DNA of 64,000 nt. It comes from Pseudacidovorax sp. (GTDB lineage Bacteria > Pseudomonadota > Gammaproteobacteria > Burkholderiales > Burkholderiaceae_C). The notes beneath the pieces were generated by a model that was not told the DNA's origin, did not search any database, and saw nothing but the letters and a program-made list of their open reading frames with translations. Shown in pieces: positions 8,371-52,460 of this stretch. The stretch is from NCBI RefSeq assembly GCF_017991995.1, contig NZ_JAGOPN010000009.1, forward strand, positions 62,001-126,000, given 5' to 3'. Numbering within the stretch: the stretch's first letter is position 1; each line of letters begins with the position of its first letter. Position numbers and translations under genes: made by a program.

Positions 8371-8437
8371 ACTGTGGGTCGGCGCGGTTCCAGAACAAAC
8401 GAATGAATCCGGCGTTGCTCATGCGGAAAACGTCTTT
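8371..8437 (-). promoter_or_regulatory. Sulfur-regulon-type promoter of metN-metI-metQ
   Basis: On the minus strand, operator position 1 is 8437. AAAGACG occupies 1-7, AGCAA 19-23, G 28 and TTCGTT 35-40 (8403-8398). The last TT starts a -35 hexamer TTTGTT; after 17 bp the -10 is CACAGT (8376-8371). It lies about 62 bp before metN and is one of seven promoters with identical spacing in the window. Confidence 0.6.
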
Positions 8438-8476
8438 GGCGCGCCACCGCACGCCACGCCGCTCAACGCAGCGCCG

Positions 8477-8543
8477 TTATGCGCCGCCCGGCTAAGCAAT
8501 GGCGGAATGCTTCGTTCATGCCGGACGGCCGTCGACGCACAGT
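8477..8543 (+). promoter_or_regulatory. Sulfur-regulon-type promoter of the metQ2-flavoprotein operon
   Basis: TTATGCG at 8477-8483, AGCAA at 8495-8499, G at position 28, TTCGTT at 8511-8516, -35 TTCATG (8515-8520), 17-bp spacer and -10 CACAGT (8538-8543). The metQ2 start follows 45 bp later. It is back to back with the metN promoter within a 280-bp divergent region. Bases 8477-8494 match 28848-28865 at 16 of 18 positions. Confidence 0.62.
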
Positions 8544-8588
8544 GCGCCTCCCAGGCTGCTCCAGGCCGCATTCCCGACGATTCGCGCC

Positions 8589-9404
8589 ATGTCCTTTCCC
8601 CTCCGTCCCCGCCGCCTTGCGGCGCTCTCGCTCCTCGGCCTCGCGGCCTTCGCGACGCACGCGGCCGAACTGGCCGTGGGCTTCATGCCCGGCCCCTACC
8701 GCGACGCCTTCACCAAGGGCATTGCGCCCCAGCTCGAAAAGAAGGGCTACCAGATCCGCTACGTCGAGTTCAGCCAGGGCGTGCAGCCCAACGACGCGGT
8801 GCAGCGCGGCCAGATCGACGCCAACATCTTCCAGCACACCCTCTACCTGCAGGCCACCAACAAGAGCCAGGGCTTCGACCTGGTGCCGGTGGTGCATGTG
8901 CCGACCCCGCCCATGGGGCTGTATTCGCAGAAGCACAGGAAGCTGACCGATGTGCCCGACGGCGCGACCGTCACGCTGCCGGCCGATCCGGTCAATGCGG
9001 CGCGCGCGCTCAACATCCTGGCGGCGCTCGGCTGGGTGCAGCTCAAGCCGGGCGTGGACCCGATCAGCGTCTCCGAGCGCGACGTCGTCGCCAATCCCAA
9101 GCGGCTCAAGCTGGTGCCGCTGGACGCCGCGCAGGCGCCGCGCTCGCTGGCCGATGCCGACCTGGCGGCCGTGCAGGGCAACTTCGCCGTCGCCTCGGGG
9201 TTGAAGCTCACCGAGGCGCTCAAGCTCGAAGACATGACGCTGCCCTACGTGAACGTGGTCGCCGTGAAGCGCGGCAACGAGAACGCGGCCTTCGCCCGCG
9301 ACATCGCCGAGGCCTACCGCTCGGTCGAGTTCCAGCGCCTCTTCCGCGCTAACCCGGTGTGGGCCGGCTACCGGCTGCCCGACTACTTCACCGCGGCCCA
9401 ATGA
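8589..9404 (+). CDS. MetQ-type (NlpA family) substrate-binding protein, second copy
   Basis: The 271-residue secreted protein has a signal peptide ending near AAFATHAAE and no lipobox Cys. NLPA-family features include PYRDAFTKGIAPQLEKKGY, QIDANIFQHTLYLQATN, PADPVNAARALNILAALGW and LAAVQGNFAVASGL. No permease or ATPase is in its own operon; instead its stop overlaps (ATGA) the start of a DszC/SfnB-type flavoprotein, followed by another and an LLM monooxygenase. It probably uses the divergent MetN-MetI and delivers a sulfur compound that the downstream oxygenases cleave (inference). The start at 8589 suits the promoter at 8477-8543. Confidence 0.85.
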   Translation: MSFPLRPRRLAALSLLGLAAFATHAAELAVGFMPGPYRDAFTKGIAPQLEKKGYQIRYVEFSQGVQPNDAVQRGQIDANIFQHTLYLQATNKSQGFDLVPVVHVPTPPMGLYSQKHRKLTDVPDGATVTLPADPVNAARALNILAALGWVQLKPGVDPISVSERDVVANPKRLKLVPLDAAQAPRSLADADLAAVQGNFAVASGLKLTEALKLEDMTLPYVNVVAVKRGNENAAFARDIAEAYRSVEFQRLFRANPVWAGYRLPDYFTAAQ

Positions 9405-10684
9405 CCGCCCGCACCGAAGACGAAGCCCCGACCCGTTCGTCGAGCGCCAGCGCCCAGGCAGTGACCATGAGCACGCAAGCCTTCTTCGACGGGCCCACCG
9501 CCGACACCTGGCAGGCCCGCGCCCATGGGTTGCGACAGGCGCTGCAGGCGGACGCGCCCTTGCGCGACCGGGCCGGCGGCCGGCCCGTGGCCGCGCAGGC
9601 ACTGCTCAAGGGCAGCGGCCTGCTGCCGGCCCTGGTGCCCGTGCATCAGGGCGGCGGGGGCGCCGCGGTGTCCAGCCTGCTGCGCGCCGTGCGCGAGCTG
9701 GCCCGCACCGATGCCTCGGTCGCCTTGCTGCTGGGCCATCACATCGCGGCCGTGCTGGGCCTGGCGGTGCACGGCAGTGCACAGGCCCAGTCCCTGCTGG
9801 ACGCCACGGCCCGGCAGCGCTGGCTGTGGACGCATCCGCTGGACACCGACCTGCCCACGCTGGGCGCCCGGCGCATCGGCGCGGGCTGGCTGCTCGACGG
9901 CCAGTTGCATGCCACGGCCGGCCTGCATGCCGCCGATCGCCTGCTGCTGAGCTGGCCCGACGTGCGCGGATCGCGCGTGACGGCCAGCCTGCGGCTGGAC
10001 CATCCCGGCGTTGGCGAAGCCCTGCTGGACGATGGCTTCGGCCTGCGCCAGGCCGGCGGCGGCACGCTGCCCCTGTCGGCCGTGCAGTTGGGCGAGCCCG
10101 AACTGCTCGGCCCCGCGGTCCGTCCCACCTCGCCGCGCGCCGACCTGCCGGCCCTGCTGCAGCAGGCCGCCCAGCTGGAGGTCTTCATCGGCAGCGCCTG
10201 GGGTGCGCTGGACGAAGGCCGCGCCTACACCCTCACCGCCTCGCGGCCCTGGATCCATTCCGGCGTCGAGCGCCACGAGGACGATCCGTGGATCCAGCGC
10301 CGCTACGGCGAACTCGCGCTGCGCGTGCAGGCCGCCACCGAGCTGGCCGAGCGCGCAGCCCGGGACTTCGACCTGGCCCGGGCGGCCGGGGACGACCTGA
10401 ATGCCGCCGCCCGCGATGCGCTGGCCGTGCAGATCGCCACCGCCCACCTGGAAGCCGCCGAGGCCGCCGACGCCGCGGGCAGCGGCATCTTCGAGCTGAT
10501 GGGCGCCCGCTCGGCCACCGTGGCCAACGGCTACGACCGCTTCTGGCGCGACACGCGCACGCTGCGCCTGCCTCAGCGCACCGACGCACGCCAGCGCGCC
10601 CTGGGCCGCTGGCTGCTGGGGGGCGCCGTGCCCCTGTCCACGCCGGCCACGCCTACGGCCGTCTTCGCGGCCCCATCGCCATGA
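9401..10684 (+). CDS. Divergent acyl-CoA-dehydrogenase-fold flavoprotein (DszC/SfnB-like)
   Basis: This 427-residue protein is a distant member of the acyl-CoA dehydrogenase-like monooxygenase group: N-terminal helical region with DRAGGRP, a middle beta region and a C-terminal helical domain ending NGYDRFWRDTRTLRLP. The related proteins here end with an RN-x-RT-x3-H-[ND]-P motif; in this one the His-Asn-Pro segment is replaced (RTLRLPQRTDARQ), and the middle domain is shortened. It may therefore be a non-catalytic or differently acting partner of the next gene, to which it is joined by an ATGA overlap. It begins with an ATGA overlap with metQ2; an internal ATG at 9467 is an alternative start. 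Confidence 0.7.
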   Translation: MTARTEDEAPTRSSSASAQAVTMSTQAFFDGPTADTWQARAHGLRQALQADAPLRDRAGGRPVAAQALLKGSGLLPALVPVHQGGGGAAVSSLLRAVRELARTDASVALLLGHHIAAVLGLAVHGSAQAQSLLDATARQRWLWTHPLDTDLPTLGARRIGAGWLLDGQLHATAGLHAADRLLLSWPDVRGSRVTASLRLDHPGVGEALLDDGFGLRQAGGGTLPLSAVQLGEPELLGPAVRPTSPRADLPALLQQAAQLEVFIGSAWGALDEGRAYTLTASRPWIHSGVERHEDDPWIQRRYGELALRVQAATELAERAARDFDLARAAGDDLNAAARDALAVQIATAHLEAAEAADAAGSGIFELMGARSATVANGYDRFWRDTRTLRLPQRTDARQRALGRWLLGGAVPLSTPATPTAVFAAPSP

Positions 10685-13292: not shown

Positions 13293-13480
13293 GCGCTGCA
13301 GACGCGGCGCACGCGCGGGACGGCGCCAGGCCAGGCCAGGACAGGCCATCGCCGGTGCCCGGACCCGGGCCGCGGCGAGGCCCTCAACTATCATCGACCG
13401 CACCGGGAAAGCAGCCTCCCGACCCTCTCGAAGGTAGACGGTGTCCCGTCCAAGTGCTGGGCTTGCCCTATGGAGTTTTC

Positions 13481-18171: not shown

Positions 18172-18499
18172 GGCAGGGACGGAACATGCCGGCTCCTGCT
18201 ATAGGAAACGGCGCGGAATTCGCCCTGGTGGAGCTGGCGGATGGAAATGCTCACGGAAGTACCTGTGATGCAGATGGAAGGAAGCGCCATGGAGCGCAGC
18301 GCGGCCGGGCCGTGCATGCGCCCGCGCACGCGCAGGGGCCGCCGCGCTTATGCGCACCCACAGCAAGCAAGCGCGAAAAACGTCGTTGGCGGCGCAGGCC
18401 GCCCCGCCTAGGCTTCGACGCTTTCCGCACTGCACGGATGCGCCGCACGCCGCCCACGGGCCTAGCGTCCGCGGCCACGCCGGCCCCCCCTGCCTTCCC
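18172..18499. other. Intergenic region between uvrA-like gene and flavoprotein operon
   Basis: This 328-bp divergent region contains the sulfur-regulon-type promoter at 18348-18414 firing rightward. The left 170 bp must hold the leftward promoter of the uvrA-like gene, but I see no convincing -35/-10 there, and no small gene or repeat. Confidence 0.5.
18348..18414 (+). promoter_or_regulatory. Sulfur-regulon-type promoter of the 18500-28806 operon
   Basis: TTATGCG at 18348-18354, AGCAA at 18366-18370, G at position 28 (18375), GTCGTT at 18382-18387, -35 TTGGCG (18386-18391), 17-bp spacer and -10 TAGGCT (18409-18414). The first gene starts 86 bp downstream. Confidence 0.58.
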
Positions 18500-19714
18500 A
18501 TGTCTTCAAACCGTTCTGACGCCGAGTCCCTGACGCAGCGCTTTCGCCCCCTCTTCCAGCAAATCGCCGAGGCCGCGCCGCAGCGCGAACATGAGCGCAG
18601 GCTGGCGCACGACGCCATCGATGCGCTCAGGCAGGCCGGCTTCGGCGCCCTGCGCGTGCCGCGTGCCCACGGCGGCCTGGGCGCCACGCCCGAGCAGCTG
18701 TTCGACCTGCTCATCGAATTGGCCGAGGCCGACTCGAATCTGCCGCAGGCACTGCGCGCGCACTTCGGCTTCGTCGAACGGCTGCAGGCCGAGATCGATG
18801 CCGAGCGGCGCGTGCCCTGGCTGCGACGCGTGGCCGACGGCGCCCTCTTCGGCAATGCCACCACCGAAGCCGGCGAGGGCACGCTGGGCCGGCTGCAGAC
18901 CCGGCTGTTCCGCGAGAACGGACGCTGGCTGCTCGAAGGCGAGAAGTTCTACAGCACCGGCACGCTCTACGCCGACTGGGTCAGCGTGACGGCGCAGCGC
19001 GAGGGCAACGAACCCGGCGCGTCCCGCACGCTGGCCGTGGTGCGCACCGACGCGGCGGGCGTTGAGCGGCTCGACGACTGGCGCGGCTTCGGCCAGCGGC
19101 TGACGGCCTCGGGCACCACACGGCTGCACCGCGTCGAAGTGCCGGAAGAGAACATCCTCGAGTTCCCCGCGCGCGAGGCGACCTCGCTGCCCGCCGTGTT
19201 CCAGCTCTTCCACGTGGCCACGATGGCCGGCATCGCCCGGGCCATCGTGCGCGACGCGACCACCTTCGTGCAGGGCCGCAAGCGCGTCTTCAGCCACGGC
19301 AGCGGCACTGCGCCGCGCGAAGACCCGCTGGTGCAGCAGGTGATCGGCCAGCTCGAAGCCACGGCCTACCTCGCGCAGCTGGGCGTGCAGGACGTGGCGC
19401 GTGCGCTGGGTGACATCGACCGCCTGCGTCAGGCCGGCCAGCCCGTACCTGAGGCCGCGCTGGTGGACGTCGAGTTGCGCGCCACCAAGGCGCAGGTGGT
19501 GACGACCGATGCGGTGCTGCAGGCCGCCACGCGGCTCTTCGATGTCGGCGGTGCCACCGCGCTTCAGGAAGACCGCCGCCTGGACCGCCACTGGCGCAAT
19601 GCGCGCACGCTCGCCTCGCACAACCCGGTGATCTACAAGGCCCGCGTGCTGGGCGACCACACCCTCAACGCCAGCCGGCCCACCTTCTACTGGGCCGTCG
19701 GCACCACGGCCTGA
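18500..19714 (+). CDS. Acyl-CoA-dehydrogenase-like flavin monooxygenase (SfnB/DszC family)
   Basis: The 404-residue flavoprotein has the ACAD-fold layout of SfnB: ALRVPRAHGGLGATPEQLFD, FGNATTEAGEGTLGRLQTRL, GEKFYSTGTLYADWVSV, DDWRGFGQRLTASGTTRL and the C-terminal LDRHWRNARTLASHNP motif (His ~374). SfnB-type proteins belong to sulfone and organosulfur utilisation; the substrate here is unknown. The start at 18500 is used because the in-frame upstream extension overlaps the promoter. It is the first gene of a long operon; a TauD-type dioxygenase starts 9 bp after its stop. Confidence 0.83.
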   Translation: MSSNRSDAESLTQRFRPLFQQIAEAAPQREHERRLAHDAIDALRQAGFGALRVPRAHGGLGATPEQLFDLLIELAEADSNLPQALRAHFGFVERLQAEIDAERRVPWLRRVADGALFGNATTEAGEGTLGRLQTRLFRENGRWLLEGEKFYSTGTLYADWVSVTAQREGNEPGASRTLAVVRTDAAGVERLDDWRGFGQRLTASGTTRLHRVEVPEENILEFPAREATSLPAVFQLFHVATMAGIARAIVRDATTFVQGRKRVFSHGSGTAPREDPLVQQVIGQLEATAYLAQLGVQDVARALGDIDRLRQAGQPVPEAALVDVELRATKAQVVTTDAVLQAATRLFDVGGATALQEDRRLDRHWRNARTLASHNPVIYKARVLGDHTLNASRPTFYWAVGTTA

Positions 19715-19723: not shown

Positions 19724-20635
19724 ATGACCAACCTTGCCATCGCCCCCTCACCCGCCCGAACCGCCGCTGCCAGCACCTGGCGGATCACGCCCCTGGATGC
19801 GCCGCTGGGCGCGCGCGTCGAGGGCCTGGACGTGCGCCAGCCCTTGCGCGGCGAGCAGGTGTTCGCGCTCAAGGCTGCCCTGCGCGAGCACCGCATCCTG
19901 CTGCTGCCCGGCCAGTGGCCGGACGACGCGCAATACCTGCGCTTCGCGAGCCATTTCGGCACCGTGTTCGCCCCGCCGCCCAATGCACCGGTGCTGGGCT
20001 CGGACGCGCAGGGCATCCCGCCCGACATCGTGTGGGTCTCCAATGCCGACGAAGGCGGCGTGCTGGGCCATGCCGAGCTCAGCGCCCATGCCGATCACCA
20101 CTGGACGCCGCAACCCTCCTCGGGGTCGATGCTGCACGCGCTGGAAGTGCCCTCCGTGGGCGGCGACACCACCTGGATCGACCTGGTGGCCGCCTACGAG
20201 GCGCTCGACGAGGCCACACGGCGCGAGATCGACGGCCTGCAGCTGATCACCTACAACCCCTTCCTGCGCCGCCTGCATCCGCTGCCCGGCACGGCACGCA
20301 TTCCGCGCTACCGCACGCCCGACATCGAGCCGCTGACGCCATGGGAGGCCCATCCGCTGGTGCGCACCCATCCCGACACCGGCCGGCGGCTGATCTACCT
20401 GGGCGAGAGCACCGAGGTCGAGGTCGTCGGCTGGGGCCCGATCGAGGGCCAGGCGCTGGTGGAGCGGCTGCGCGCGCACATCCTGCAGCCGCGCTTCGCC
20501 TACACCCACCGCTGGCAGCCCGGCGACATCGTGTACTGGGACAACCAGGCCACCCTGCACAGCCGCACCGGCTTCGATGCGGCGCAGCGCCGCCGCCTGC
20601 GCCGCATCAGCCTGGCCGGCAGCCGTCCGTTTTGA
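19724..20635 (+). CDS. TauD/TfdA-family Fe(II)/2-oxoglutarate dioxygenase
   Basis: The 303-residue cytosolic oxygenase shows the 2-His-1-carboxylate facial triad: H122-A-D124 in LSAHADHHW and the distal H279 in WDNQATLHSRTGF, with Arg residues at 290-294 placed to bind 2-oxoglutarate. The family hydroxylates sulfonates or sulfate esters next to the sulfur group so that sulfite or sulfate is lost. The segment AHADHHW is richer in His than the usual WHTD motif, so substrate may differ from taurine. It is cotranscribed with a SfnB-like flavoprotein (9 bp upstream) and an LLM oxygenase (198 bp downstream, with a dispersed repeat between). Confidence 0.85.
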   Translation: MTNLAIAPSPARTAAASTWRITPLDAPLGARVEGLDVRQPLRGEQVFALKAALREHRILLLPGQWPDDAQYLRFASHFGTVFAPPPNAPVLGSDAQGIPPDIVWVSNADEGGVLGHAELSAHADHHWTPQPSSGSMLHALEVPSVGGDTTWIDLVAAYEALDEATRREIDGLQLITYNPFLRRLHPLPGTARIPRYRTPDIEPLTPWEAHPLVRTHPDTGRRLIYLGESTEVEVVGWGPIEGQALVERLRAHILQPRFAYTHRWQPGDIVYWDNQATLHSRTGFDAAQRRRLRRISLAGSRPF

Positions 20636-38833: not shown

Positions 38834-38872
38834 GGCGACCCCGTGTTCGCACACTCTGCTTTCCACTGCTTC

Positions 38873-39803: not shown

Positions 39804-40559
39804 ATGAGCTCCACGCTGTTCATCGTGGCCGTGGGCGCCGCTGCAGGCGGCTTCGTACAGGGCTTGTCCGGCTTCGCCTTCGGCCTGGTGGCCATGAGCG
39901 TCTGGGCCTGGACGCTGCCACCTCCGCTGGCTGCGGTGCTGGCGGTCTTCGGCTCCCTCACCGGCCAGTTGATCGCGGCCACCGCGGCCGGCCGACGGCC
40001 GGTCGACCTGCCGAGGCTGTGGCCCCTGCTGGCCGGCGGCCTGGCGGGCGTCCCGCTGGGCATGTGGTTGCTGCCCCGCATCGACGCGCCCCTCTTCAAG
40101 GCCGGGCTCGGCATGCTGCTCGTGGTCTGGTGCCCCGCGATGCTCATGGCCCGCCGCCTGCCGCGCGTGCGTGGCGGCCGCGCCGCAGATGGCCTGGTGG
40201 GACTGGCCGGCGGCGCCCTCGGCGCGCTGGGTGGCCTCACGGGCACGCTGCCGACGCTCTGGTGCCAGTTGCGTGGCATGGACCGCCAGGCGCAGCGTGC
40301 GCTGATCCAGAACTTCAACCTCATCATGCTGGCGGTCGCGGCCGCAGGATACGCAGCGCGGGGCGCCGTGACGGCTCCGATGCTGCCGCTGCTGGGTGTC
40401 GCCGCGGTGTCCATGCTCCTGCCGTCGCTGATCGGCGCGCGTCTCTATCACCGGCTGGACGAGGCACAGTTCCGCCGACTCGTGTTGGGCCTGCTGACGC
40501 TCTCGGGGCTCGCGTTGCTCGCGGGCGGCCTGCCTTCCCTGCTGGCGCGCTGGCACTGA
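39804..40559 (+). CDS. TauE/SafE-family anion exporter
   Basis: The 251-residue membrane protein has about eight hydrophobic segments and the duplicated TauE/SafE pattern: GGFVQGLSGFAFGLVAMSVW in the first half, GLAGGALGALGGLTGTLPTL in the second. The family exports sulfite, sulfoacetate or related organosulfur anions. Next to sulfonate- and sulfatase-type operons it plausibly removes excess sulfite. No clear Shine-Dalgarno is seen; the six-copy heptamer array stands directly upstream. It converges with the sulfatase gene. Confidence 0.82.
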   Translation: MSSTLFIVAVGAAAGGFVQGLSGFAFGLVAMSVWAWTLPPPLAAVLAVFGSLTGQLIAATAAGRRPVDLPRLWPLLAGGLAGVPLGMWLLPRIDAPLFKAGLGMLLVVWCPAMLMARRLPRVRGGRAADGLVGLAGGALGALGGLTGTLPTLWCQLRGMDRQAQRALIQNFNLIMLAVAAAGYAARGAVTAPMLPLLGVAAVSMLLPSLIGARLYHRLDEAQFRRLVLGLLTLSGLALLAGGLPSLLARWH

Positions 40560-43107: not shown

Positions 43108-44049
43108 TCAGGCGGTGGCCGTGGCCTCGTCGACCACGGCGGCGCGGGTGGTCTGCGTGGTGGGCGTGGTGCCGAAGGCATTGAAGGTCACGCGCTGCGT
43201 CACCCGGCGGTGCGGCCAGTAGTCGGTCAGGGCGTAGTGCTGGGTGCTGCGGTTGTCCCACACGGCGATGCCGTGGGGCTCCCACTTGTGCTGGTAGACG
43301 AATTCGGGCTGCACGATCCATTCGCGCAGGAATTCGAGCAGCCCGCGCCCTTCGCGGAAGTGCACGCCATCGATGTGCCGGGTGAAGTTCTCGTTGACGA
43401 ACAGCACCTTGCGCCCCGATTCGGGATGCACCTGCACCACCGGCCGCGACACCGGCGGGTACTTGCGCAGCGCATCGGTCAGGCCCTGCAGGCCGGCGTA
43501 CTTCTCCAGCGCCTGGCGCCAGCCGCTGATCTCCCAGGTGTGGGTGGCCGTCAGGCCTTCGAGATAGGCCTGCAGGCCGGGCGACAGGGCCGCGAAGGCC
43601 TTGCTCAGGCTGGCCCAGGCGGTATTGCCACCCTGGGCCGGCAGCTCGGTGATCTGGATCACCGTGCCGTTGGGCGGCTGCGGCAGCCAGGTGAGGTCGC
43701 TGTGCCAGATGTTGATCTCGGGCGGGCGCTTCTCGTCGAACTCGATCACCTCGACGAAGGGATGGCCGTCCTTGCGCGGGAAGAAGGCGCCGGGCGCCAG
43801 CTCGCCGAAGACGGCGGCCAGTGCCACGTGCTGCTCGGGCGTGAGCGGCTGGGCGGGGAAGAACAGCACCTCGAAGTCCAGCAGCGCCTGCTGCAGCTCG
43901 GCGCGCACCTCGGGGCCGATGGGCTGCGTCAGGTCCACGCCCTCGATGCGCGCCGCGAAGTTGGGCTGCTGCGGCTGCGGCCGGATGTGGCGGTAGCGGC
44001 CGGCGATGTCGACGGGCTCGATGCGGACGGGAAATTTCTGGACGGACAT
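43108..44049 (-). CDS. TauD/TfdA-family Fe(II)/2-oxoglutarate dioxygenase
   Basis: The 313-residue dioxygenase shows H116-S-D118 (NIWHSDLTW), distal H271 (WDNRSTQHYALTDY) and Arg 282/286 for 2-oxoglutarate. It is close to TauD/AtsK-type enzymes that oxidise the carbon next to a sulfonate or sulfate ester group and release sulfite or sulfate. The start at 44049 follows AGGAGAGG; an upstream ATG frame is a shadow. It sits between the ATPase and the second binding protein in the leftward operon. Confidence 0.88.
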   Translation of the reverse strand: MSVQKFPVRIEPVDIAGRYRHIRPQPQQPNFAARIEGVDLTQPIGPEVRAELQQALLDFEVLFFPAQPLTPEQHVALAAVFGELAPGAFFPRKDGHPFVEVIEFDEKRPPEINIWHSDLTWLPQPPNGTVIQITELPAQGGNTAWASLSKAFAALSPGLQAYLEGLTATHTWEISGWRQALEKYAGLQGLTDALRKYPPVSRPVVQVHPESGRKVLFVNENFTRHIDGVHFREGRGLLEFLREWIVQPEFVYQHKWEPHGIAVWDNRSTQHYALTDYWPHRRVTQRVTFNAFGTTPTTQTTRAAVVDEATATA

Positions 44050-44074
44050 GGACCTCTCCTGTTGACGAAACGAA

Positions 44075-44869
44075 TCAGGCCGCGAGAGCGACTTCGCCTT
44101 CGGCCTCGGCGGGACCGGCGAACTCGGCCAGCACGGCATCCTTGATCTGCACGAAGGCCAGGTCGGCGCGGCGCCGCGGATGGGCCAGCGGCACCGGCAC
44201 CACGCGCTGGATGCGCCCGGGCCGCGGCGCCATCACCACCACGCGGTCGCCGAGGAAGACGGCTTCTTCCACGTCGTGCGTGACGAGCACCGTGGTGATG
44301 CCCTCGGCCTGCCAGATGCGCTGCAGCTCCTGCTGCAGGTGCGCGCGGGTCATGGCGTCGAGCGCGCCGAAGGGCTCGTCCAGCAGCAGCACCTCGGGCC
44401 GGCTCACCAGGGCGCGCGCAATGGCCACGCGCTGCGACATGCCGCCCGACAGCTGGTGCGGCCAGGCGCGCTCGAAGCCGCGCAAGCCCACCAGGGCGAT
44501 GTGGTCGGCCACCTGCCGCGCCTTCTGCGATTCGGTCAGCGGGGCGTTGATCAAGCCCAGCGCCACGTTGTCCTGCACCGTGAGCCAGGGAAAGAGCCGG
44601 TGCTCCTGGAACACGATGCCGCACTCCAGGCCCGTGCCGGCGATGGGGCGGCCGTCGAGCAGAAGCTCGCCGTCGAAGCCGGCCTCCAGCACCACGATGA
44701 GCCGCAGCAGCGTGGACTTGCCGCAGCCGCTGGTGCCGACGATGCTGACGAATTCGCCGGGCGCGATGTCCAGCGAGATGTCCTGCAGCACGGGCAGCGG
44801 CTGGCCCTCGACCTCGTACTGCTTGGAGAGATGGCGGATGGCCAGCGTGCCGGCCTCGGAATGGCTCAT
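44075..44869 (-). CDS. Sulfonate/taurine-type ABC transporter ATP-binding protein
   Basis: The 264-residue ATPase matches SsuB/TauB: Walker A GTSGCGKST (45-53), FQEHRLFPWLTVQDNVALGL, signature LSGGMSQR (140-147), Walker B VLLLDEPFGALD and switch TVLVTHDVEEAVFLGDRVVV. It energises import through the two TauC/SsuC-type permeases encoded upstream. The gap to the preceding permease gene is 40 bp. Confidence 0.88.
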   Translation of the reverse strand: MSHSEAGTLAIRHLSKQYEVEGQPLPVLQDISLDIAPGEFVSIVGTSGCGKSTLLRLIVVLEAGFDGELLLDGRPIAGTGLECGIVFQEHRLFPWLTVQDNVALGLINAPLTESQKARQVADHIALVGLRGFERAWPHQLSGGMSQRVAIARALVSRPEVLLLDEPFGALDAMTRAHLQQELQRIWQAEGITTVLVTHDVEEAVFLGDRVVVMAPRPGRIQRVVPVPLAHPRRRADLAFVQIKDAVLAEFAGPAEAEGEVALAA

Positions 44870-45736: not shown

Positions 45737-46603
45737 TCAGAACCCTGGACGGCGCCAGCGTGTCAGGCGCGATTCCACCGCCGCCAGCAGCCGGTCGAGC
45801 GCAAAGCCCACCACACCGACCACCACCACGGCCGCCAGCACCACGTCGAGCTGGAACAGCTGCCGCCCATAGACGATGAGGAAGCCGATGCCCTCGCTCG
45901 ATGCCAGCAGCTCCACCACGACCAGCGCCAGCCAGGCATGGGTGAAGCCGTAGCGGATGCCATTCCAGATGGGCGCGAAGGCCGCCGGGAACACCACCTT
46001 GGACAGCAACTGCCAGCGGGTGAAGCGAAGCACGCGCGCCACCTCGATGTAGCGGGTGGGCACGCCCTGGATGCCCTTGAAGGTGTTGAGCGCCACCGGC
46101 ACCAGCGCCGCCTTGGCGATCAGCAGCACCTTGAGCGTCTCGTCGATGCCCACCAGCAGCATCAAGAGCGGCAGCCAGCCCAGCACCGGAATCTGGCTGA
46201 AGGCCTTGAAGAAGGGGTAGACGTAATCCTTGAAGCGCGGCGACAGGCCCATCGCCACGCCCAGCGGCAGGCCGATGGCCGTGCCGGCCGCGAAGCCGGC
46301 CAGCACGCGGGCCAGGCTCACGCCCAGGTGCGGCCACAGCTCGCCGGTGCGAACCAGGCCGACCAGCGTGACCCAGACCGCGGCGGGCGCCGGCAGCACC
46401 TGCGGGGCCACCCAGGCCCGGTCGGCCGCCACCCACCAGAGCAGCAGGACCGCGAGCGGAAAGGGCCAGCCGGCGAGGCGCAGCGCCAGGGCCTTCAGCC
46501 GCTGGCGCCACACCGACGTCGCCGGCACGGGCGGCGCTGCCAGGGGAAGCTGAAGGGCAGGCGTGCTCATGGCAGGCAAAGGTGCAGGAAGGCCATCGCT
46601 CAC
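45737..46603 (-). CDS. Sulfonate/taurine-type ABC transporter permease (second)
   Basis: The 288-residue permease shows FSQIPVLGWLPLLMLLVGID, LVPVALNTFKGIQGVPTRYI, coupling loop VARVLRFTRWQLLSKVVFPA and ASSEGIGFLIVYGRQLFQLD. The GTG at 46603 overlaps the binding-protein stop (GTGA); an ATG at 46570 is an equally reasonable start, and neither has a clear Shine-Dalgarno. Two different permease genes in one sulfonate operon are less common than the usual single SsuC. Confidence 0.86.
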   Translation of the reverse strand: MSDGLPAPLPAMSTPALQLPLAAPPVPATSVWRQRLKALALRLAGWPFPLAVLLLWWVAADRAWVAPQVLPAPAAVWVTLVGLVRTGELWPHLGVSLARVLAGFAAGTAIGLPLGVAMGLSPRFKDYVYPFFKAFSQIPVLGWLPLLMLLVGIDETLKVLLIAKAALVPVALNTFKGIQGVPTRYIEVARVLRFTRWQLLSKVVFPAAFAPIWNGIRYGFTHAWLALVVVELLASSEGIGFLIVYGRQLFQLDVVLAAVVVVGVVGFALDRLLAAVESRLTRWRRPGF

Positions 46604-47568
46604 GCGAGCCCCGATGCCGCGGCCTCCTGCACCTTGATGGGCTTCGGAATGAGCTTGAGCGCGTAGAAGGTGTCGGCGATCTGCTGCTGCTCGGCCAGGA
46701 TGGCGCGGGTGATGGGGCCGGTGCCGAACTGCACGCGAGCAAAGGTGGTGTCCACCACCGGCTTGGGCAGGCCCCAGATGGCCGCCAGCTCGGCCGAGAA
46801 GGCATCGCGGTTGGCCGCGCCCCAGCTGTCGATGCGGGAGATCTCCTCGATCAGCACCTTGGTGATGTCGCGGTTCTTCTCGGCATAGGGCAACGACGAG
46901 AAGTAGTAGGCCCGGTTGCCCACCACGCCCGTGGCATCGGCCAGGATCCGGCCGCCCAGCGTCTTTTCGGCGGCGGCGAGGAAGGGGTCCCAGATCACCC
47001 AGGCGTCGATGGAGCCCTTCTCGAAGGCCGCCCGCGCATCGGCCGGCGGCAGGAAGACCGACTGCACGTCGCCGTAGGCCAGGCCGTTCTTCTCGAGCAG
47101 CTTGACCAGGAAGTAGTGGACGTTGCTGCCCTTGTTGTAGCCCACGCGTTTGCCCTTGAGGTCCGCCACGCTGCGGATGGGCGAATCCTTGGGCACCAGC
47201 ACGGCCTCCGACGCGGGCCGCGGCACCGTGGCCGCCACATAGGCCAGCGGCGCACCAGCGGCCTGGGCAAAGATCGGCGGCGCCTCGCCGACATCGCCGA
47301 AGTCGATGGAGCCGACGTTGAGCGCCTCCAGTTGCACCGAGCCGGCCGTGAATTCGGTCCAGCTCACCTTGACGCCCAGCGGCGCGAGCCGCTGCTCCAG
47401 CGTGCCGCGGGCCTTGAGCAGGCTGAGGATGCCCTTCTGGTTGCCGATGCGCAGCGCGCGCGACGCGGACTGGGCGAAGGCGGGTGCACCCGCGAAGGCC
47501 ACGCCGCCCGCAGCGGCAGTGCCCACCTGCAGCAGGCGACGGCGGGAAAGGGGAAGCGGGAAAGTCAT
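46600..47568 (-). CDS. Aliphatic-sulfonate-type ABC transporter substrate-binding protein (SsuA-like)
   Basis: The 322-residue exported protein has a Tat-like leader (LSRRRLLQVGTAAAGGVAFA, cut near AFAQSA). SsuA-family stretches are LRIGNQKGILSLLKARGTLE, WTEFTAGSVQLEALNVGSID, FGDVGEAPPIFAQAAGAPL, GKRVGYNKGSNVHYFLVKLL and DAWVIWDPFLAAAEK. It is the first gene of the leftward sulfonate operon. The start at 47568 is favoured because the promoter at 47605-47671 lies just upstream. Confidence 0.89.
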   Translation of the reverse strand: MTFPLPLSRRRLLQVGTAAAGGVAFAGAPAFAQSASRALRIGNQKGILSLLKARGTLEQRLAPLGVKVSWTEFTAGSVQLEALNVGSIDFGDVGEAPPIFAQAAGAPLAYVAATVPRPASEAVLVPKDSPIRSVADLKGKRVGYNKGSNVHYFLVKLLEKNGLAYGDVQSVFLPPADARAAFEKGSIDAWVIWDPFLAAAEKTLGGRILADATGVVGNRAYYFSSLPYAEKNRDITKVLIEEISRIDSWGAANRDAFSAELAAIWGLPKPVVDTTFARVQFGTGPITRAILAEQQQIADTFYALKLIPKPIKVQEAAASGLA

Positions 47569-47604
47569 GTCGGAACAGGCGCTCGCAGCAAGGAAGGGAT
47601 GCGG

Positions 47605-47671
47605 ATTCTTGGGCCGCCTGCCCTGCATGGGAAACGCGCAGTTCTCAGGTCCTTATTCGCAAAGCGAGCAA
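47605..47671 (-). promoter_or_regulatory. Sulfur-regulon-type promoter of the leftward sulfonate operon
   Basis: On the minus strand from 47671: TTGCTCG at 1-7, AG at 19-20, G at 28, GCGTTT at 35-40, -35 TTCCCA (47633-47628), 17-bp spacer and -10 AAGAAT (47610-47605). The SsuA-like start is 36 bp on. The 24 bases 47652-47675 match 52353-52376 in inverted orientation at 21 positions. Confidence 0.55.
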
Positions 47672-47715
47672 GGGCCGGTCAATCCCTCCCAAGCCGATGT
47701 GCCGACCCGACGCCT

Positions 47716-48465
47716 CTACGCGCGGAACACGTCTTCAGCCATCTCGTCGAGCCTTTCCTTCACCGCTCGCCAGTTCGGCATGTGCCGGTCCAGCGTTCGG
47801 TAGAACCTGGCGCTGTGGTTATGGTGCAGCAGGTGGCACAGCTCATGGAGCAGCACGTAGTCGATGCACTCCCGTGGCGTCTTCACCAGCAGGGGGTTCA
47901 GCGTGATGCGGCCAGACGGTGAACAGCTTCCCCATTGCACCGTCATGAACTGCAGGCGTGTCTGTGGAAGCTGCCTGACCCATCGGAGGGGATCGGCGAC
48001 CGCTGCCAACCGCTCAGCGAACACCTCCCGCGCGCGCTGCCGATACCAGGCGTCCAGCGCGGCCCTGATCCGGGCCGGCACAGGCTCGGGCGTCGTTACG
48101 GCGATGAACGCGCCGCGCATCCGGGCCTCTGCTTTGGCCTCTGCATCGACCACCACCTTCAGGCGATAGCGTCGCCCCAGATAGTGCAGCGATTCACCGC
48201 TCACGTACTCGCGGGGCAGAACATGGGCCAACCGTGCCCTCGCGGCATGCACATGCTGGCTGATCCAGCGCGCCCGCTTCTTCACCGCCGTCAGCACATC
48301 CGCTAGAGCGGCGCTGTCCGGTGCATCCACCAGCACGCGGGCGTCCGGCTCTACATGGATGGCAACCCGCGTCACGGCGCGCGACGGTTGACGGCGCAGA
48401 CTGAAGTCGATGATCTCGTCGCCGTAGGGGATGCGGTGCTGCGAGACGCGTTCCGTTACTTGCAT
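47716..48465 (-). CDS. YgjP-like (DUF45, SprT-type) zinc metallopeptidase
   Basis: The 249-residue cytosolic protein has the YgjP layout: an N-terminal beta region containing HYLGRRYRLKV, then WYRQRAREVFAERL, QWGSCSPSGRITLNPLLVKT and the zinc site H207-E208-L-C-H211 (LLHELCHLLHHNHSARFY), third ligand probably H217. Genes of this family commonly sit next to type I hsdR genes; their role there is not established. It starts 2 bp after the rhuM-hsdR fusion stop. Base composition of 47.7-52.3 kb looks less GC-rich than its surroundings, consistent with transfer. Confidence 0.87.
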   Translation of the reverse strand: MQVTERVSQHRIPYGDEIIDFSLRRQPSRAVTRVAIHVEPDARVLVDAPDSAALADVLTAVKKRARWISQHVHAARARLAHVLPREYVSGESLHYLGRRYRLKVVVDAEAKAEARMRGAFIAVTTPEPVPARIRAALDAWYRQRAREVFAERLAAVADPLRWVRQLPQTRLQFMTVQWGSCSPSGRITLNPLLVKTPRECIDYVLLHELCHLLHHNHSARFYRTLDRHMPNWRAVKERLDEMAEDVFRA

Positions 48466-48467
48466 GT

Positions 48468-50108
48468 TCAAGGCTTGCTCAATCCGACACGCGTGATCTG
48501 GATGACTTGTTCGACCACCTGTTTGGCGTTGTCCAGGCCGAGCGCGTCGAACAACAGCGGCAGCAGGCCCTTGCGGATGGCCGCCTCGATGTTCTGGGGA
48601 TTGAGCGAGTTCTCGGCCACGGCATCGCGCACGATGGTGTCCATGGTGATCGCGTGTTGCACCCGCATGTCCTGGGCCTCGGCGCTCATCGCGGCAAAGG
48701 CCTCCTCCCCCTCGACCAGGCGCATCGCGCCGAAGTAGGCCCTGGCATGCGGCTTGTCTGCCAGCGCGTCGGGCATGTCCGGGGTTGCACGCGCCTCCAG
48801 CTTGTCCTCGAAGGACTTGAACAGCGCGTACTGCTTCAGCGGATGGTCGAACATGGCCTCCGCTTCGGCGATGGCCTGGCGCAGCAGTTCGCCGAACACC
48901 TTCTGCGCATAGGGGTCGTCCGCCAGCTCCTGCTCGATGGTCTTGCGCAGTCGGGTGCGGATCATGTCCGTCTCGTTGCGCGTCTTGTCCGCGGACCAGT
49001 CCTGTGGGTCTTCTGCTTGCCCCAACTGGTGCACCAGATAGACGCCTTCCGGTTCGCGCACTTCGGTGCCGATGACCTGTCTGTCCACCAGCTTGCGGAT
49101 CTGCTCTTCGTAGACGCTGTAATCGACCGTCTCCATGGCATCGCGGCGGGCGGTCTGGCGCAGCTCGGCGAAGAAGCGCAGGTCGGCCTTGTACCGGGCG
49201 ATCTGCGCCTCGGAAAAGCGCGGGTCCTCGAAGAAGCTGCGGGACGAGAGCGCCGTCTGCAAGCAAAGCCCGAAGGCGGTCACTGCGGCATAGTAGTCGT
49301 CCCGCAGCTTCTGTCGCTCGTCGTACTCTTCGCCGCCGCCGTCCTTCACGAATTTCGGTGCCAGCAGCTGCCGGTACTGCTCGCGGTCGAGCTTGTTGGT
49401 CAGCCCCATGTGGTCCTTGCTCGCATCGGCGCGGCTGTAGATCACCTCGGCCGCGGTCTGCCCGTGGATGGCCCAATGCAGCTTGTTCTGCACGGTGGCA
49501 AAGAAGCGCTGGGTGGCCTGGGACTGGCGGTCGTAGTCGACGGCCGTGGCGTAGATGTCGGTGATCTTCTGATAGAACTTGCGCTCGGAAAGACGGATCT
49601 CCCGGATGCGCTGCAGCTGCTCTTCGAAGTACTGCTTCGTCAGGATGGAGCCGTCGTTCTTCAGGCGCTCGTCGTCCATCGCGAAGCCCTTGATGGTGAA
49701 GGACTCGACGATGCCACTGGCCCACTTGCGGAACTGCACCGCGCGCTCGGAGTTGACCTTGTAGCCCACGGCGATGATGGCGCCCAGGCTGTAGTGCAGG
49801 GTGTCGTAGTTCTTGCCGTCGGAGGCAGTTATCCGGAATTTCCGGATAACTGCCTCTTCCTGCAGCTCGCGGTCGGCAAAGACTTTCTTCAGGTGCTCGT
49901 TGATCGTGCGGACGTTCACGTCGTAGAGCTGCGCCATCATCTTCTGGGTCAACCAGACGTTTTCATCCGCATAGAGGGCCTCGACGCCGCCCTGGCCCGC
50001 CGCGGCCACGAAGGTCAGGTACTCCGCCGCCGATGAACGCGTGATGGCAGGCAGCGACTTCGCGAGCCTGGCCTTCGCCTTGCCGGCGGCGCCGGCTGGC
50101 TTATTCAT
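48468..50108 (-). CDS. RhuM-family protein fused to the C-terminal part of type I restriction subunit HsdR
   Basis: The 546-residue frame is a chimera. Residues ~45-237 are RhuM: ENVWLTQKMMAQLYDVNVRT, EEAVIRKFRITASDGKNYDT, GYKVNSERAVQFRKWA, FFATVQNKLHWAIHGQTAAE. From about residue 240 it reads as the HsdR C-terminal region: LLAPKFVKDGGGEEYDERQK, VDYSVYEEQIRKLVDRQVIG, ELADDPYAQKVFGELLRQAI, LNPQNIEAAIRKGLLPLLFD and VEQVIQITRVGLSKP. The HsdR nuclease and helicase motor domains are absent, so it cannot restrict DNA by the normal mechanism. The C-terminal part could still dock on HsdM/HsdS. The start overlaps hsdM by 8 bp. The joint lies near 49,395. A 35-bp palindrome lies at codons 85-96. Confidence 0.78.
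   Translation of the reverse strand: MNKPAGAAGKAKARLAKSLPAITRSSAAEYLTFVAAAGQGGVEALYADENVWLTQKMMAQLYDVNVRTINEHLKKVFADRELQEEAVIRKFRITASDGKNYDTLHYSLGAIIAVGYKVNSERAVQFRKWASGIVESFTIKGFAMDDERLKNDGSILTKQYFEEQLQRIREIRLSERKFYQKITDIYATAVDYDRQSQATQRFFATVQNKLHWAIHGQTAAEVIYSRADASKDHMGLTNKLDREQYRQLLAPKFVKDGGGEEYDERQKLRDDYYAAVTAFGLCLQTALSSRSFFEDPRFSEAQIARYKADLRFFAELRQTARRDAMETVDYSVYEEQIRKLVDRQVIGTEVREPEGVYLVHQLGQAEDPQDWSADKTRNETDMIRTRLRKTIEQELADDPYAQKVFGELLRQAIAEAEAMFDHPLKQYALFKSFEDKLEARATPDMPDALADKPHARAYFGAMRLVEGEEAFAAMSAEAQDMRVQHAITMDTIVRDAVAENSLNPQNIEAAIRKGLLPLLFDALGLDNAKQVVEQVIQITRVGLSKP
49822..49856. repeat. 35-bp perfect palindrome inside the rhuM reading frame
   Basis: GAGGCAGTTATCCGGAA (49822-49838) and its exact complement TTCCGGATAACTGCCTC (49840-49856) surround a single T. 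It encodes RhuM residues E85 to A95 (EEAVIRKFRIT). A 17-bp perfect arm within coding sequence is far beyond chance and suggests the DNA itself is recognised. Confidence 0.9.
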
Positions 50109-51627
50109 AGCCCAGCTCCTTCAGGTAGACGCTCATCTGCGCTTCCAGCCGGGCCAGCTCGCCCTTGAGCTGCTCGCGCTCCCTGCGCACGGCCATCAGG
50201 TCGATTTCGGCCTCTTCCTCGAAGGTGTCCACGTAGCGTGGGATGTTGAGATTGAAGTCGTTCTCGGCGATTTCGGCCGGCGAGGCAAGGTAGGCGTACT
50301 TGTCCACGCTCTGCCTTGCAGCAGCCGTGGTCAGGATGCGCTGCAGATCGGCTTCGCGCAGCAGGTTCTGGTTCTTCCCCGCCTCGAAGTCACGGCTAGC
50401 GTCGATGAACAGCACCTTGTCGTCGGCCTTGTTCTTGCGGAACACCAGCACGGCGGCGGGGATGCCGGTGCCGTAGAACAGCTTTTCGGGCAGGCCGATC
50501 ACCACGTCGAGCAGGTTCTCTTCGATCAGTCGCTGGCGAATGCGGCCCTCGGCCGCACCACGGAACAGCACGCCATGCGGCACCACCACCGCCATGCGGC
50601 CGGTACCGGTTTTCATGGTCTCGATCATGTGCAGGATGAAGGCGTAGTCGCCCTTGGTACGCGGCGGCACGCCCCGGCGGAAGCGGCTGAACTTGTCGGC
50701 ATCGGCCCCGTCGAAGCCCCACTTCTCCAGGCTGAACGGCGGGTTGGCCACCACGATGTCGAAGTGCTTGAGGCTGGCCTTGCCGTCGAGCAGCTTGGGA
50801 TTGCGGATGGTGTCGCCCCATTCGATGCGGTGGTTGTCCTCGCCATGCAGGAACATGTTCATCTTGGCCAGCGCCCAGGTGCTGCCGATGGCTTCCTGCC
50901 CATAGAGCGCGTACTTGCGTGAGCCGGTGTTCTGGCGGATCAGGCGGCCGCACTTCATCAGCAACGAGCCGGAGCCGCAGGTGGGGTCGCAGATTTCATC
51001 GCCTTCTTGCGGCGCCATCAGCCGCGCCATGAGCGTGGAGACTTCGGGCGGGGTGTAGAACTCCCCCGCCTTCTTGCCGCTGGTGGAGGCGAAGTTCTTG
51101 ATGAGGAACTCGTAGGCATTGCCGATCACGTCGAGCTGGCCGACGCGGCTGGGGCGCAGGTCCAGCGCCGGCTTGGCGAAGTCTTCCAGCAGGTGGCGCA
51201 GGATGTCGTTCTTCTGCTGTTCGTCGCCCAGCTTGTTGGAGTTGAAGCTGATGTCCTGGAACACATCGCGCAGCTTGGTGATGTTGGCGTCTTCGATGGC
51301 GTCGAGGGCCTTGTCGATGCGCTCGCCGTTGCCCGGACTGTGACGCCGGTTGTAGAGGGCATAGAAGCTGGCGCGGGCCGGCAGCACGAAGCGCTCGTTC
51401 TTGAGCATTTCCTCGATCAGCTCGGGGTGGTCGCCATACTGCTTCTTGTAGTCGTCGTAATGGTCTTGCCAGACATCCGACACGTACTTGAGGAAGAGCA
51501 TGGTCAGGACGAAGTCCTTGTAGATGCTCGGATCCACCGTGCCGCGGAAGGTGTCGCAGGCTGCCCAGACGGCGGCGTTGATGTCGTCCTGGCTGACCGG
51601 GGCGATGGTGCTGAGGGTGTCGTTCAC
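50101..51627 (-). CDS. hsdM: Type I restriction-modification DNA methyltransferase subunit HsdM
   Basis: The 508-residue adenine methyltransferase has the HsdM N-terminal helical domain (VWAACDTFRGTVDPSIYKDF), the SAM-binding motif D214-P-T-C-G-S-G220, the catalytic N-P-P-F (295-298), GVPPRTKGDYAFILHMIETM and a C-terminal coiled coil near EIDLMAVRREREQLKGELAR. It appears intact. The start is GTG at 51627 with GGAAAG upstream; hsdS lies 20 bp before and the rhuM-hsdR fusion overlaps its end by 8 bp. With the half-size HsdS it should methylate a specific DNA site. Confidence 0.92.
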   Translation of the reverse strand: MNDTLSTIAPVSQDDINAAVWAACDTFRGTVDPSIYKDFVLTMLFLKYVSDVWQDHYDDYKKQYGDHPELIEEMLKNERFVLPARASFYALYNRRHSPGNGERIDKALDAIEDANITKLRDVFQDISFNSNKLGDEQQKNDILRHLLEDFAKPALDLRPSRVGQLDVIGNAYEFLIKNFASTSGKKAGEFYTPPEVSTLMARLMAPQEGDEICDPTCGSGSLLMKCGRLIRQNTGSRKYALYGQEAIGSTWALAKMNMFLHGEDNHRIEWGDTIRNPKLLDGKASLKHFDIVVANPPFSLEKWGFDGADADKFSRFRRGVPPRTKGDYAFILHMIETMKTGTGRMAVVVPHGVLFRGAAEGRIRQRLIEENLLDVVIGLPEKLFYGTGIPAAVLVFRKNKADDKVLFIDASRDFEAGKNQNLLREADLQRILTTAAARQSVDKYAYLASPAEIAENDFNLNIPRYVDTFEEEAEIDLMAVRREREQLKGELARLEAQMSVYLKELGYE

Positions 51628-51647
51628 AAGATGGCTTTCCGGGGTGT

Positions 51648-52253
51648 TCAGTGAGCGGGCTGGGCGGCTTGCGCCAGACCTTCTGCAAGCGCATGGAGTT
51701 GCCGCTCGCGATTGCGGATGAGTTGGTGAAGGGTGCGGCGCTCTTGGCGGGCCAGGTCTGCCAGCGCCACGATGCGTTGTTGGTCTGCCATCGGCGGCAC
51801 GCTCAGCGCGAGCGATTCCAGCACGGGGCGGCGGATGCTCAGCTGGCTGCTGCCCTCGGCGGCTTGTTGCAGCTGACGCTGGAACGGCGGCTGGTTGATC
51901 TGCCATGCCAGGAAGGCCGGCAGCAGTGCGGCCCCACGCAGCACCTGAAGCAGAAAGAAGTGCGGGCTGCACACGGCGGCGCCTGGCGGCTCCTCGATGC
52001 AGACGGCATAGAACCGTGCACCCCTGGCGACGAAGAGGACGTCGCCGGCCTTGAGCCAGCCCGGCTGCTTGCGTCCGGCGAGGGAGGTGCGGATGACGCC
52101 CGACCAGTTCACGCCGTGGTCGGGATCGACGTCTTTCATCTGCACAGCCAGGGTGCCGCCGTTCGCCGACTCCTCGATGGAGCCACGGAAGGGGTACCCG
52201 CCTTGCAGCGAGGCCAACCCGCCAACGGTTGAAAGATTTGCATCAATCGGCAT
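51648..52253 (-). CDS. hsdS: Half-length type I specificity subunit HsdS (single target-recognition domain)
   Basis: The 201-residue protein contains one target-recognition domain (LASLQGGYPFRGSIEE, CSPHFFLLQVLRGAALLPAF, LSIRRPVLESLALSVPPMAD) and one helical spacer (QQRIVALADLARQERRTLHQ), half of a usual HsdS (~400-450). Half-size HsdS proteins can dimerise to recognise a symmetric site. The ATG at 52253 is chosen over a longer frame from 52379, because the extension overlaps the promoter and operators. It lies exactly 8 bases past a good -10, implying a leaderless mRNA. An in-frame TTG about 12 codons downstream is another possible start. The gene precedes hsdM, an inverted order compared with most hsd loci. 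Confidence 0.78.
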   Translation of the reverse strand: MPIDANLSTVGGLASLQGGYPFRGSIEESANGGTLAVQMKDVDPDHGVNWSGVIRTSLAGRKQPGWLKAGDVLFVARGARFYAVCIEEPPGAAVCSPHFFLLQVLRGAALLPAFLAWQINQPPFQRQLQQAAEGSSQLSIRRPVLESLALSVPPMADQQRIVALADLARQERRTLHQLIRNRERQLHALAEGLAQAAQPAH

Positions 52254-52259
52254 GATGCA
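52239..52259. promoter_or_regulatory. Operator copy 1 before hsdS (7-7-7 inverted repeat)
   Basis: TGCATCA (52239-52245), 7-bp spacer, TGATGCA (52253-52259). Arms are identical to those of copy 2 and the spacer length is the same. It abuts the -10 element and covers the predicted transcription and translation start. Confidence 0.75.
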
Positions 52260-52260
52260 G

Positions 52261-52290
52261 ATCATAGGTCCATTCGCTGAGCCCCGGGAA
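52261..52290 (-). promoter_or_regulatory. hsdS promoter, apparently leaderless
   Basis: On the minus strand: -35 TTCCCG (52290-52285), 18-bp spacer, -10 TATGAT (52266-52261), then 7 bases to the A of the ATG at 52253. The promoter is bracketed by the two identical operators. Confidence 0.55.
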
Positions 52291-52292
52291 TT

Positions 52293-52313
52293 TGCATCAC
52301 CGCCAATGATGCA
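52293..52313. promoter_or_regulatory. Operator copy 2 before hsdS (7-7-7 inverted repeat)
   Basis: TGCATCA (52293-52299), 7-bp spacer, TGATGCA (52307-52313). It lies just upstream of the hsdS -35, 54 bp centre to centre from copy 1, close to five helical turns, so both can be bound on one DNA face. Confidence 0.75.
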
Positions 52314-52356
52314 TTTTCCACCGTGGCTGCGCGCTGCCCGGTGCCACCCTGCGCCC

Positions 52357-52384
52357 TTGCTCGCTTCGCGCATGAGCAAACTCG
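52357..52384 (+). promoter_or_regulatory. Additional sulfur-regulon operator without promoter core
   Basis: TTGCTCG (52357-52363), AGCAA (52375-52379) and G at position 28 (52384) reproduce the operator pattern, but no TTCGTT box follows. It lies 37 bp upstream of the operator of the tauD promoter and may be an auxiliary site. Confidence 0.45.
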
Positions 52385-52393
52385 CTTTCCGCC

Positions 52394-52460
52394 TTAGACG
52401 ATTCCCTTGTTAGCAAGCGAGAACTCTGTCGTTCCCGCATCGAAGGTGCGTCCCTAGAGT
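52394..52460 (+). promoter_or_regulatory. Sulfur-regulon-type promoter of the 52508-57383 operon
   Basis: TTAGACG (52394-52400), AGCAA (52412-52416), G at position 28, GTCGTT (52428-52433), -35 TTCCCG (52432-52437), 17-bp spacer and -10 TAGAGT (52455-52460). The dioxygenase start is 47 bp downstream. Confidence 0.6.

Follow-up and report, generated by a model that had tools for sequence, protein, structure and literature searches.

The window analysed here is a stretch of 64,000 nucleotides of the Pseudacidovorax sp. genome (RefSeq assembly GCF_017991995.1, G000 in our set; 6.24 Mb in 38 contigs), namely positions 62,001 to 126,000 of contig NZ_JAGOPN010000009.1, and it was compared with 14 relatives of the same genus. 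Seven of its transcription units, with genes for uptake or oxidation of probable organosulfur compounds, are each preceded by a 67-bp site that combines a putative operator (positions 1-40) with a -10 element (positions 62-67). Two of the sites lie back to back. One (8371..8437, minus strand) heads a metN-metI-metQ unit, with genes for a MetN-like ATP-binding cassette (ABC) ATPase (7373..8370, minus strand; Pfam ABC_tran), whose open reading frame (ORF) extends further upstream and whose start must lie below the site, and for an NlpA/MetQ-type binding protein (domain at 5873..6580, minus strand, C29:67873-68580; 252.7 bits). The other (8477..8543, plus strand) heads the NlpA lipoprotein gene metQ2 (8544..9404, plus strand, its approximate start placed 3' of the -10) and a gene for a flavoprotein of the acyl-CoA-dehydrogenase fold. 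Three more sites follow on the plus strand. That at 18348..18414 precedes genes for another such flavoprotein (flavoprotein 1, 18452..19681), a TauD-family dioxygenase (19724..20635), a luciferase-like monooxygenase (20834..22249) and an SBP_bac_5 protein; that at 28848..28914 precedes genes for flavoprotein 2 of the same fold (28992..30248), an SBP_bac_5 protein, a permease and an ATPase; and that at 38767..38833 precedes the NlpA lipoprotein gene metQ3 (38834..39688, start approximate) and a gene for a TauE/SafE family sulfite exporter (39804..40559). The sixth site (47605..47671, minus strand) heads a leftward unit encoding an SsuA-family sulfonate-binding protein (46600..47604, minus strand; TIGR01728 at 227 bits, over the cut-off; the ORF reaches 47628), a permease, an ATPase, a TauD-family dioxygenase (43108..44139, minus strand) and an NMT1 protein, and the seventh (52394..52460, plus strand) heads a TauD-family dioxygenase gene (52508..53401, plus strand), two NMT1 genes and an ABC ATPase gene.

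All seven sites, extracted from the window, are present as a preliminary description had written them, and the details of its alignment hold. Position 6 is C and position 28 is G in every site, and position 7 is G in six (A at 28848); AGCAA occupies positions 19-23 in four sites and TATCGA positions 17-22 in two; positions 35-40 read TTCGTT (four sites), GTCGTT (two) or GCGTTT (one); and the -10 reads CACAGT three times and CATAGT, TAGAGT, TAGGCT and AAGAAT once each. Such likeness could in principle be a chance alignment, since seven short promoter regions were lined up by eye by a reader free to choose the register. When matrices were built from six sites, the left-out site ranked first in all seven cases among about 128,000 window positions on both strands, and no non-training position of the window scored above it; the register having been picked for fit, these ranks are not strict probabilities, and independent tests therefore weigh more. 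With the seven-site matrix (the window matrix below), 7 window positions scored at least 12 bits, whereas 20 column-permuted matrices averaged 0.05 such positions. A search of the entire genome for the exact pattern TTCGTT-N21-CAYAGT gave four matches, all of them within the seven sites; allowing one mismatch raised the number to 14, compared with 2 for a reversed-pattern control. These controls, together with those from orthologues, CysB-family loci and genome scans given below, leave chance alignment with practically no probability. The ten one-mismatch matches outside the window were rejected as sites, the matrix maximum across the ten loci being 1.7 bits.

Orthologous units were identified through the coding DNA 3' of each site, because selection by site score was to be avoided, and the upstream DNA was then aligned. 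Six of the seven units had 3-5 orthologues in the relatives fetched, giving 22 comparisons. Identity was 792/880 (90.0%) over positions 1-40, 354/462 (76.6%) over the spacer (41-61), 130/132 (98.5%) over the -10 and 527/880 (59.9%) over the 40 bases upstream of the site. By unit, box and -10 were conserved at 94% and 94% before metN (3 orthologues; upstream DNA 60%), 83% and 94% before metQ2 (3), 96% and 100% before flavoprotein 1 (5), 84% and 100% before metQ3 (4), 86% and 100% in the leftward sulfonate unit (4), and 96% and 100% before the tauD unit at 52394 (3); the site at 28848 is supported by extraction and the leave-one-out test. In the syntenic stretches of five relatives (335,445 bp) there were 33 matches of at least 12 bits, against a permuted mean of 0.05. 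Box and -10 are thus under selective constraint. The recurrence of NlpA, TauD and flavoprotein genes within the window might suggest instead that the sites are alike merely because whole operons were duplicated. Yet the box is kept while spacer and upstream DNA drift, the seven sites are not merged when clustered at 72% identity over their 67 bp, and sites elsewhere in the genome head unrelated first genes (for a regulator, a peroxiredoxin, a cysH-like protein and SsuE); duplication as the sole cause is accordingly very improbable.

Two CysB-family regulator genes were found in the genome at the cut-off used. One, here called the island gene (C29:54643-55659), lies about 6 kb left of the window; the other, the core gene, lies at C5:223479. 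The island product matches model NF009327 at 455 bits (cut-off 402), its closest solved structures are those of CysB, and it falls under both the Cbl equivalog NF009324 (375.7, cut-off 491) and the CysB equivalog NF009326 (366.4, cut-off 436); its closest named regulator, from Variovorax, is 79% identical. Across 15 genomes of the genus, all 13 copies of the island-type gene have a site 76-142 bp upstream, and none of the 15 core copies has one nearby; two genomes (G005 and G009) have the core type alone in the CysB-family search. In a tree of 108 regulators (midpoint root, for drawing only), the core copies have a long branch and cluster with some Burkholderia sequences, among them that of B. 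seminalis; the island copies fall in the larger clade, which also contains regulators of Variovorax, Acidovorax, Cupriavidus and Oxalobacteraceae and other Burkholderia sequences, that of B. catarinensis for one. At the B. catarinensis locus (L255), cysT and cysA lie upstream of the island-type regulator gene. The gene order given for B. cenocepacia is sbp, cysT, cysW, cysA, ssuR (PMC7970998). On the strength of tree and gene order, the island gene is assigned as the orthologue of ssuR and the core gene as cysB.

The site also accompanies CysB-family genes well outside the genus. Of 589 named CysB-family loci, 80 were kept, and 43 of these have a match of at least 8 bits (56 matches), against 0-4 matches for each of ten permuted matrices; the motif is thus found beside such a gene in distant Burkholderiales too. 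In 15 of the 80 loci it stands no more than 200 bp upstream of the regulator gene, although one of these loci (L243) belongs to the CysB clade and reaches only 8.8 bits; in 18 it stands 2.9-3.4 kb upstream, the next gene being cysT in the annotated two (L244 and L214).

The 105 matches collected were reduced to 59 non-redundant sites below 72% identity, which give the consensus (at least 50%).TA..CG.T...CGCATAAGCA...GCG.AAT..TTCGTT..C.................C.A.AAT. Of all 7-5-7 inverted repeats that fit into positions 1-61, precisely 1-19 and 22-40 score highest, whether all 59 sites, the 47 from other genomes or the seven of the window alone are used; the form was chosen after a symmetry-axis scan, so this is not a blind test, and with any gap allowed 1-19 comes first and 22-40 fourth of 945 repeats. 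Idealised, the two elements are TTATGCG-N5-CGCATAA and AAnnGCG-N5-CnTCGTT. Complementarity of the arms is about what column frequencies lead one to expect, which fits protein contacts and not RNA pairing. The 40-bp operator is thus best described as a pair of inverted repeats of 19 bp each. A single simple palindrome was considered and set aside: its axis, 20.5, is the best overall, yet 1-19 and 22-40 are the top 7-5-7 repeats. Assuming a transcription start 7 bp beyond the -10, the operator would span -73 to -34, with its centre at about -54. A 2024 paper on the CysB structure (PMC11329422) describes CysB activation sites as two convergent 19-bp elements whose centre lies 50-60 bp upstream of the start, with very weak likeness among sites, and argues from the structure that two half-sites per 19-bp element are the more likely arrangement. 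The consensus of 59 sites fits this proposal.

The genome was scanned for further sites in 2,091,300 bp including the window. With the window matrix, five oriented matches of at least 12 bits were recorded in the first 427,300 bp beyond the window before their genes had been annotated. They comprise one match before the CysB-family gene, two at a divergent site, one before a unit of TctC-family and TauD genes and one at an RNA candidate, all taken up below. A further 1.2 Mb chosen regardless of sulfur genes gave no match of at least 8 bits (best 7.7); the last 0.4 Mb was chosen partly because sulfur genes had been located there. A matrix of the 47 sites from other genomes scored all seven window sites at 33-47 bits and gave 15 oriented matches at 14 places at or above 31.5 bits, of which eight matches at seven places lie outside the window. 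Ten permuted matrices run over 1.69 Mb reached 24.8 bits at most, and ten run over the remaining 0.4 Mb reached 26.5. All 14 places above these maxima precede sulfur-linked genes or the CysB-family regulator gene itself. Thus the scan envisaged in the preliminary description, carried out on 2.09 of 6.24 Mb and on the relatives, placed its strong matches where a sulfur regulon would have them, and sulfur acquisition as the theme of the target genes holds for 14 of 14 places if ssuR is counted. Its "window-wide" sulfur regulon stands as a sulfur regulon and not in its extent, because sites also lie beyond the window and the predicted regulon is larger.

Outside the window, one site precedes the CysB-family gene, and two of the matches form one near-palindromic divergent site between a gene for a flavoprotein of the acyl-CoA-dehydrogenase fold (SfnB/desulfinase-like, far under model cut-offs) and SsuA/SsuD-like genes (under the model cut-off). 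Others precede a unit of TctC-family and TauD genes; ssuE, with ssuC and ssuA further on; and a cysH-like gene (122 bits, cut-off 154) followed by cysD, the site itself scoring 31.5 bits. A peroxiredoxin gene headed by a site lies upstream of genes for a sulfate-binding protein and CysT (L307:247-939, L306:18648-19658; C38), which suggests that antioxidant defence is tied to sulfur starvation. A second sulfate-binding protein gene with a site is followed by a serine O-acetyltransferase-like gene (L307:6834-8159, C38), whose product would make the precursor of the CysB inducer. All four TauD-family genes and all three NlpA genes found in the genome sit in site-headed units. Among weaker matches are the site of an RNA candidate described below (22.6 bits), the opposite strand of the site before the second sulfate-binding protein gene (22.5) and two AT-rich stretches (20.1 and 18.1). 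The sites before cysI (L308:12109) and the cysH-like gene (L308:14583), both on C5, have in common TTCATAAGG between -35 and -10, which is absent from the seven window sites, and may possibly form a subclass. An ATAA motif occurs between -35 and -10 in 8 of the 59 sites, and by eye also before cysI and cysH; it was not relied on as a mark of cys-type sites, because one of the eight (L187) precedes the regulator gene and only for one (L214) was the following gene annotated, as cysT.

Kinship with the enterobacterial CysB sites was examined with the 40-bp part of the consensus at 309,388 positions in 155 kb of Escherichia coli K-12 (NC_000913). The best match, at 17.1 bits, lies upstream of cysK (2532304 onwards, L342:2305), and 0 of 500 permuted matrices reached its score in the same stretches. 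The kinship is thus supported by one clear case, cysK, and not by the others. The enterobacterial sites CBS-K1, -J1 and -P1 resemble the sites described here in having paired 19-bp elements upstream of the -35; they vary in number and position according to passages of PMC11329422, whereas the spacing to the -10 is fixed here, and most E. coli sites tested (cysP, cysJ, cysD, tauA and cbl) had no match. Cbl, a CysB paralogue that is needed for alkanesulfonate use and regulated by CysB (PMC11329422, same passages), differs in that the island regulator falls below the Cbl model and in that Cbl targets match weakly (ssuE) or not at all (tauA). The SsuR regulon of B. cenocepacia resembles the present one both in its regulator, which is orthologous by the tree and stands behind cysT and cysA at the B. 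catarinensis locus, and in its targets, which include tauD-type genes and organosulfur transport. About 44 bp preceding or overlapping the -35 are said to be enough for SsuR binding in B. cenocepacia, where the recognition sequences were reportedly called only weakly alike, in contrast to the strong consensus found here. In the present genus, unlike in B. cenocepacia, the regulator gene is directly preceded by a site and lies near an organosulfur gene cluster. The literature searched, including the parts available of PMC5343134, PMC4239095, PMC10179380, PMC4501297 and PMC5002191, yielded no CysB/SsuR site consensus for Comamonadaceae.

It is highly probable, in view of these comparisons, that the sites are activator-dependent promoters of the sigma-70 type with a 40-bp operator for a tetramer of a CysB-family LysR protein, SsuR being the likeliest binder. 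The CysB/Cbl/SsuR-type site that the preliminary description had proposed is well supported by the sulfur-gene targets, the site linked to the regulator gene, the occurrence beside regulators of the same clade in other Burkholderiales and the cysK match, and the comparative evidence likewise favours the activator layout that it had recognised (a weak -35, an operator just upstream and a conserved -10). From the sites, their conservation, neighbours and symmetry, and the regulator phylogeny, we infer the binder, start sites, activation and effector as follows. Under sulfur limitation, effector-loaded regulator would bind the operator; since there are two 19-bp elements with two 7-bp arms each, the four winged-helix domains of the tetramer could each take one arm. 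The last two bases of the operator double as the first two of a degenerate -35, 17 bp before the -10, and the bound regulator would contact RNA polymerase at this poor -35. Activation would lead to organosulfur uptake (NlpA/MetNI, SsuA-type and SBP_bac_5 systems) and oxidation (TauD, flavoprotein and luciferase-like oxygenases), and would extend to the sulfate system (cysH-like gene, sulfate-binding proteins) and to ssuR itself. Having a site of its own, ssuR may be subject to positive feedback or be controlled by CysB, and the paralogue CysB probably reads the same or an overlapping site.

The core CysB protein might even be the main activator, with SsuR merely its target as Cbl is in E. coli, where CysB regulates Cbl (PMC11329422, passages as above). 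Sites in the same register precede the cysH-like gene (31.5 bits), weakly cysI (23.3 bits), and two sulfate-binding-protein units, as would suit classical CysB control, and the clear E. coli match, cysK, is a CysB target. Three points speak for SsuR: the site is linked to the SsuR-type gene or operon in 13 of 13 copies and to the CysB-type gene in 0 of 15, organosulfur units dominate the matches, and the taurine genes of B. cenocepacia have been reported as SsuR targets. A leading role for CysB is hence rather unlikely, if a serious alternative. Far less probable is that some other LysR protein, or a sigma-54 activator resembling SfnR, uses the sites. The genome has 126 matches to the LysR substrate domain, and the units encode flavoproteins of the acyl-CoA-dehydrogenase fold, which is also that of SfnB, a target of SfnR and sigma-54 in pseudomonads; but a -10 conserved at 98.5% fits sigma-70 and not sigma-54, the motif recurs beside a CysB-family gene in distant Burkholderiales, and the two 19-bp elements fit CysB.

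Several observations weigh against the interpretation of the sites as SsuR-bound sulfur promoters. The unit at 28848 had no orthologue by coding DNA among the relatives fetched, and identity over the 40 bases downstream of the -10 is high (771/880, 87.6%), so that only the upstream border of conservation is sharp and the downstream side proves less. The scan covered about one third of the genome, and the 47 sites of the second matrix had been recruited with the window matrix, for which reason its genome scan is not fully independent. The cysI site (23.3 bits) is inside the permuted range, and 37 of the 80 named CysB-family loci are without a match of at least 8 bits. In E. coli the lead of cysK is small, the runner-up (16.0 bits) lying between cysK and ptsH; ssuE ranks 26th of the 309,388 positions, a score reached by 37 of 500 permuted matrices, and cysP (118th), tauA (161st), cysD (554th), cysJ (850th) and cbl (1369th) rank lower.

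The kind of mechanism, a CysB/SsuR regulon, is known; what is new is the strength of the consensus, the architecture and the breadth of the predicted regulon. The 59 Burkholderiales sites give a sharp consensus, an arrangement of two half-sites per element and a fixed distance to the -10, which are testable by mutation. Organosulfur-mobilising bacteria bear on plant sulfur supply (PMC9694294), and with the matrix environmental Burkholderiales can be searched for genes of organosulfur scavenging, many of which have no known substrate.

One site may have an RNA as its target. At L070:18658-18853 (minus strand; C29:60658-60853), about 5 kb from ssuR and immediately beyond the 3' end of a different LysR gene, a site with the -10 TAGATT is followed by a predicted transcript of about 120 nt, at C29:60658-60780, that ends in a GC-rich hairpin and eight T; a small cysteine-containing reading frame lies just beyond this predicted strong intrinsic terminator. 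In four genomes the operator, the -10 and the transcript are kept but the spacer varies, G012 being the clearest example, and no copy of the candidate turned up in the stretches fetched from G011 and G005. The predicted fold is somewhat better than those of shuffled sequences (z -2.36; 3 of 200 shuffles as good), and Rfam gave only matches below the gathering score. Among 150 genomes of the family, where in the rows listed only this genome and G006 are marked as the same genus, full-length similarity was found in this genome only, and no more than 40 nt, chiefly of the terminator, were shared by the 13 other genomes with matches. The double proposal that the site drives a conserved structured RNA (a small RNA of sulfur starvation or an attenuating leader), and that the 59-site consensus reflects a CysB-family tetramer reading four 7-bp arms, is offered as tentative and somewhat doubtful.

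The sulfonate and tauD operons are divergent in three relatives, with 35, 35 and 62 bp between the aligned flanks. In the window the two promoters are separated by an insertion of about 4.7 kb (47674..52351; edges approximate, from the ends of BLAST alignments) with a RhuM-family gene (48468-50108). Two of the three alignments place the left end of this insertion 2 bp beyond the sulfonate operator, and both operators are intact. The alignments indicate that the two units are a divergent pair that has been split here by the insertion. Directly 5' of the tauD operator, at 52355-52393, an extra element resembling the central box (CGCGCATGAGCAAA) was noted by eye, which may possibly be an accessory site; its counterpart in G004, also by eye, reads CCGCATAAGCAAAG.

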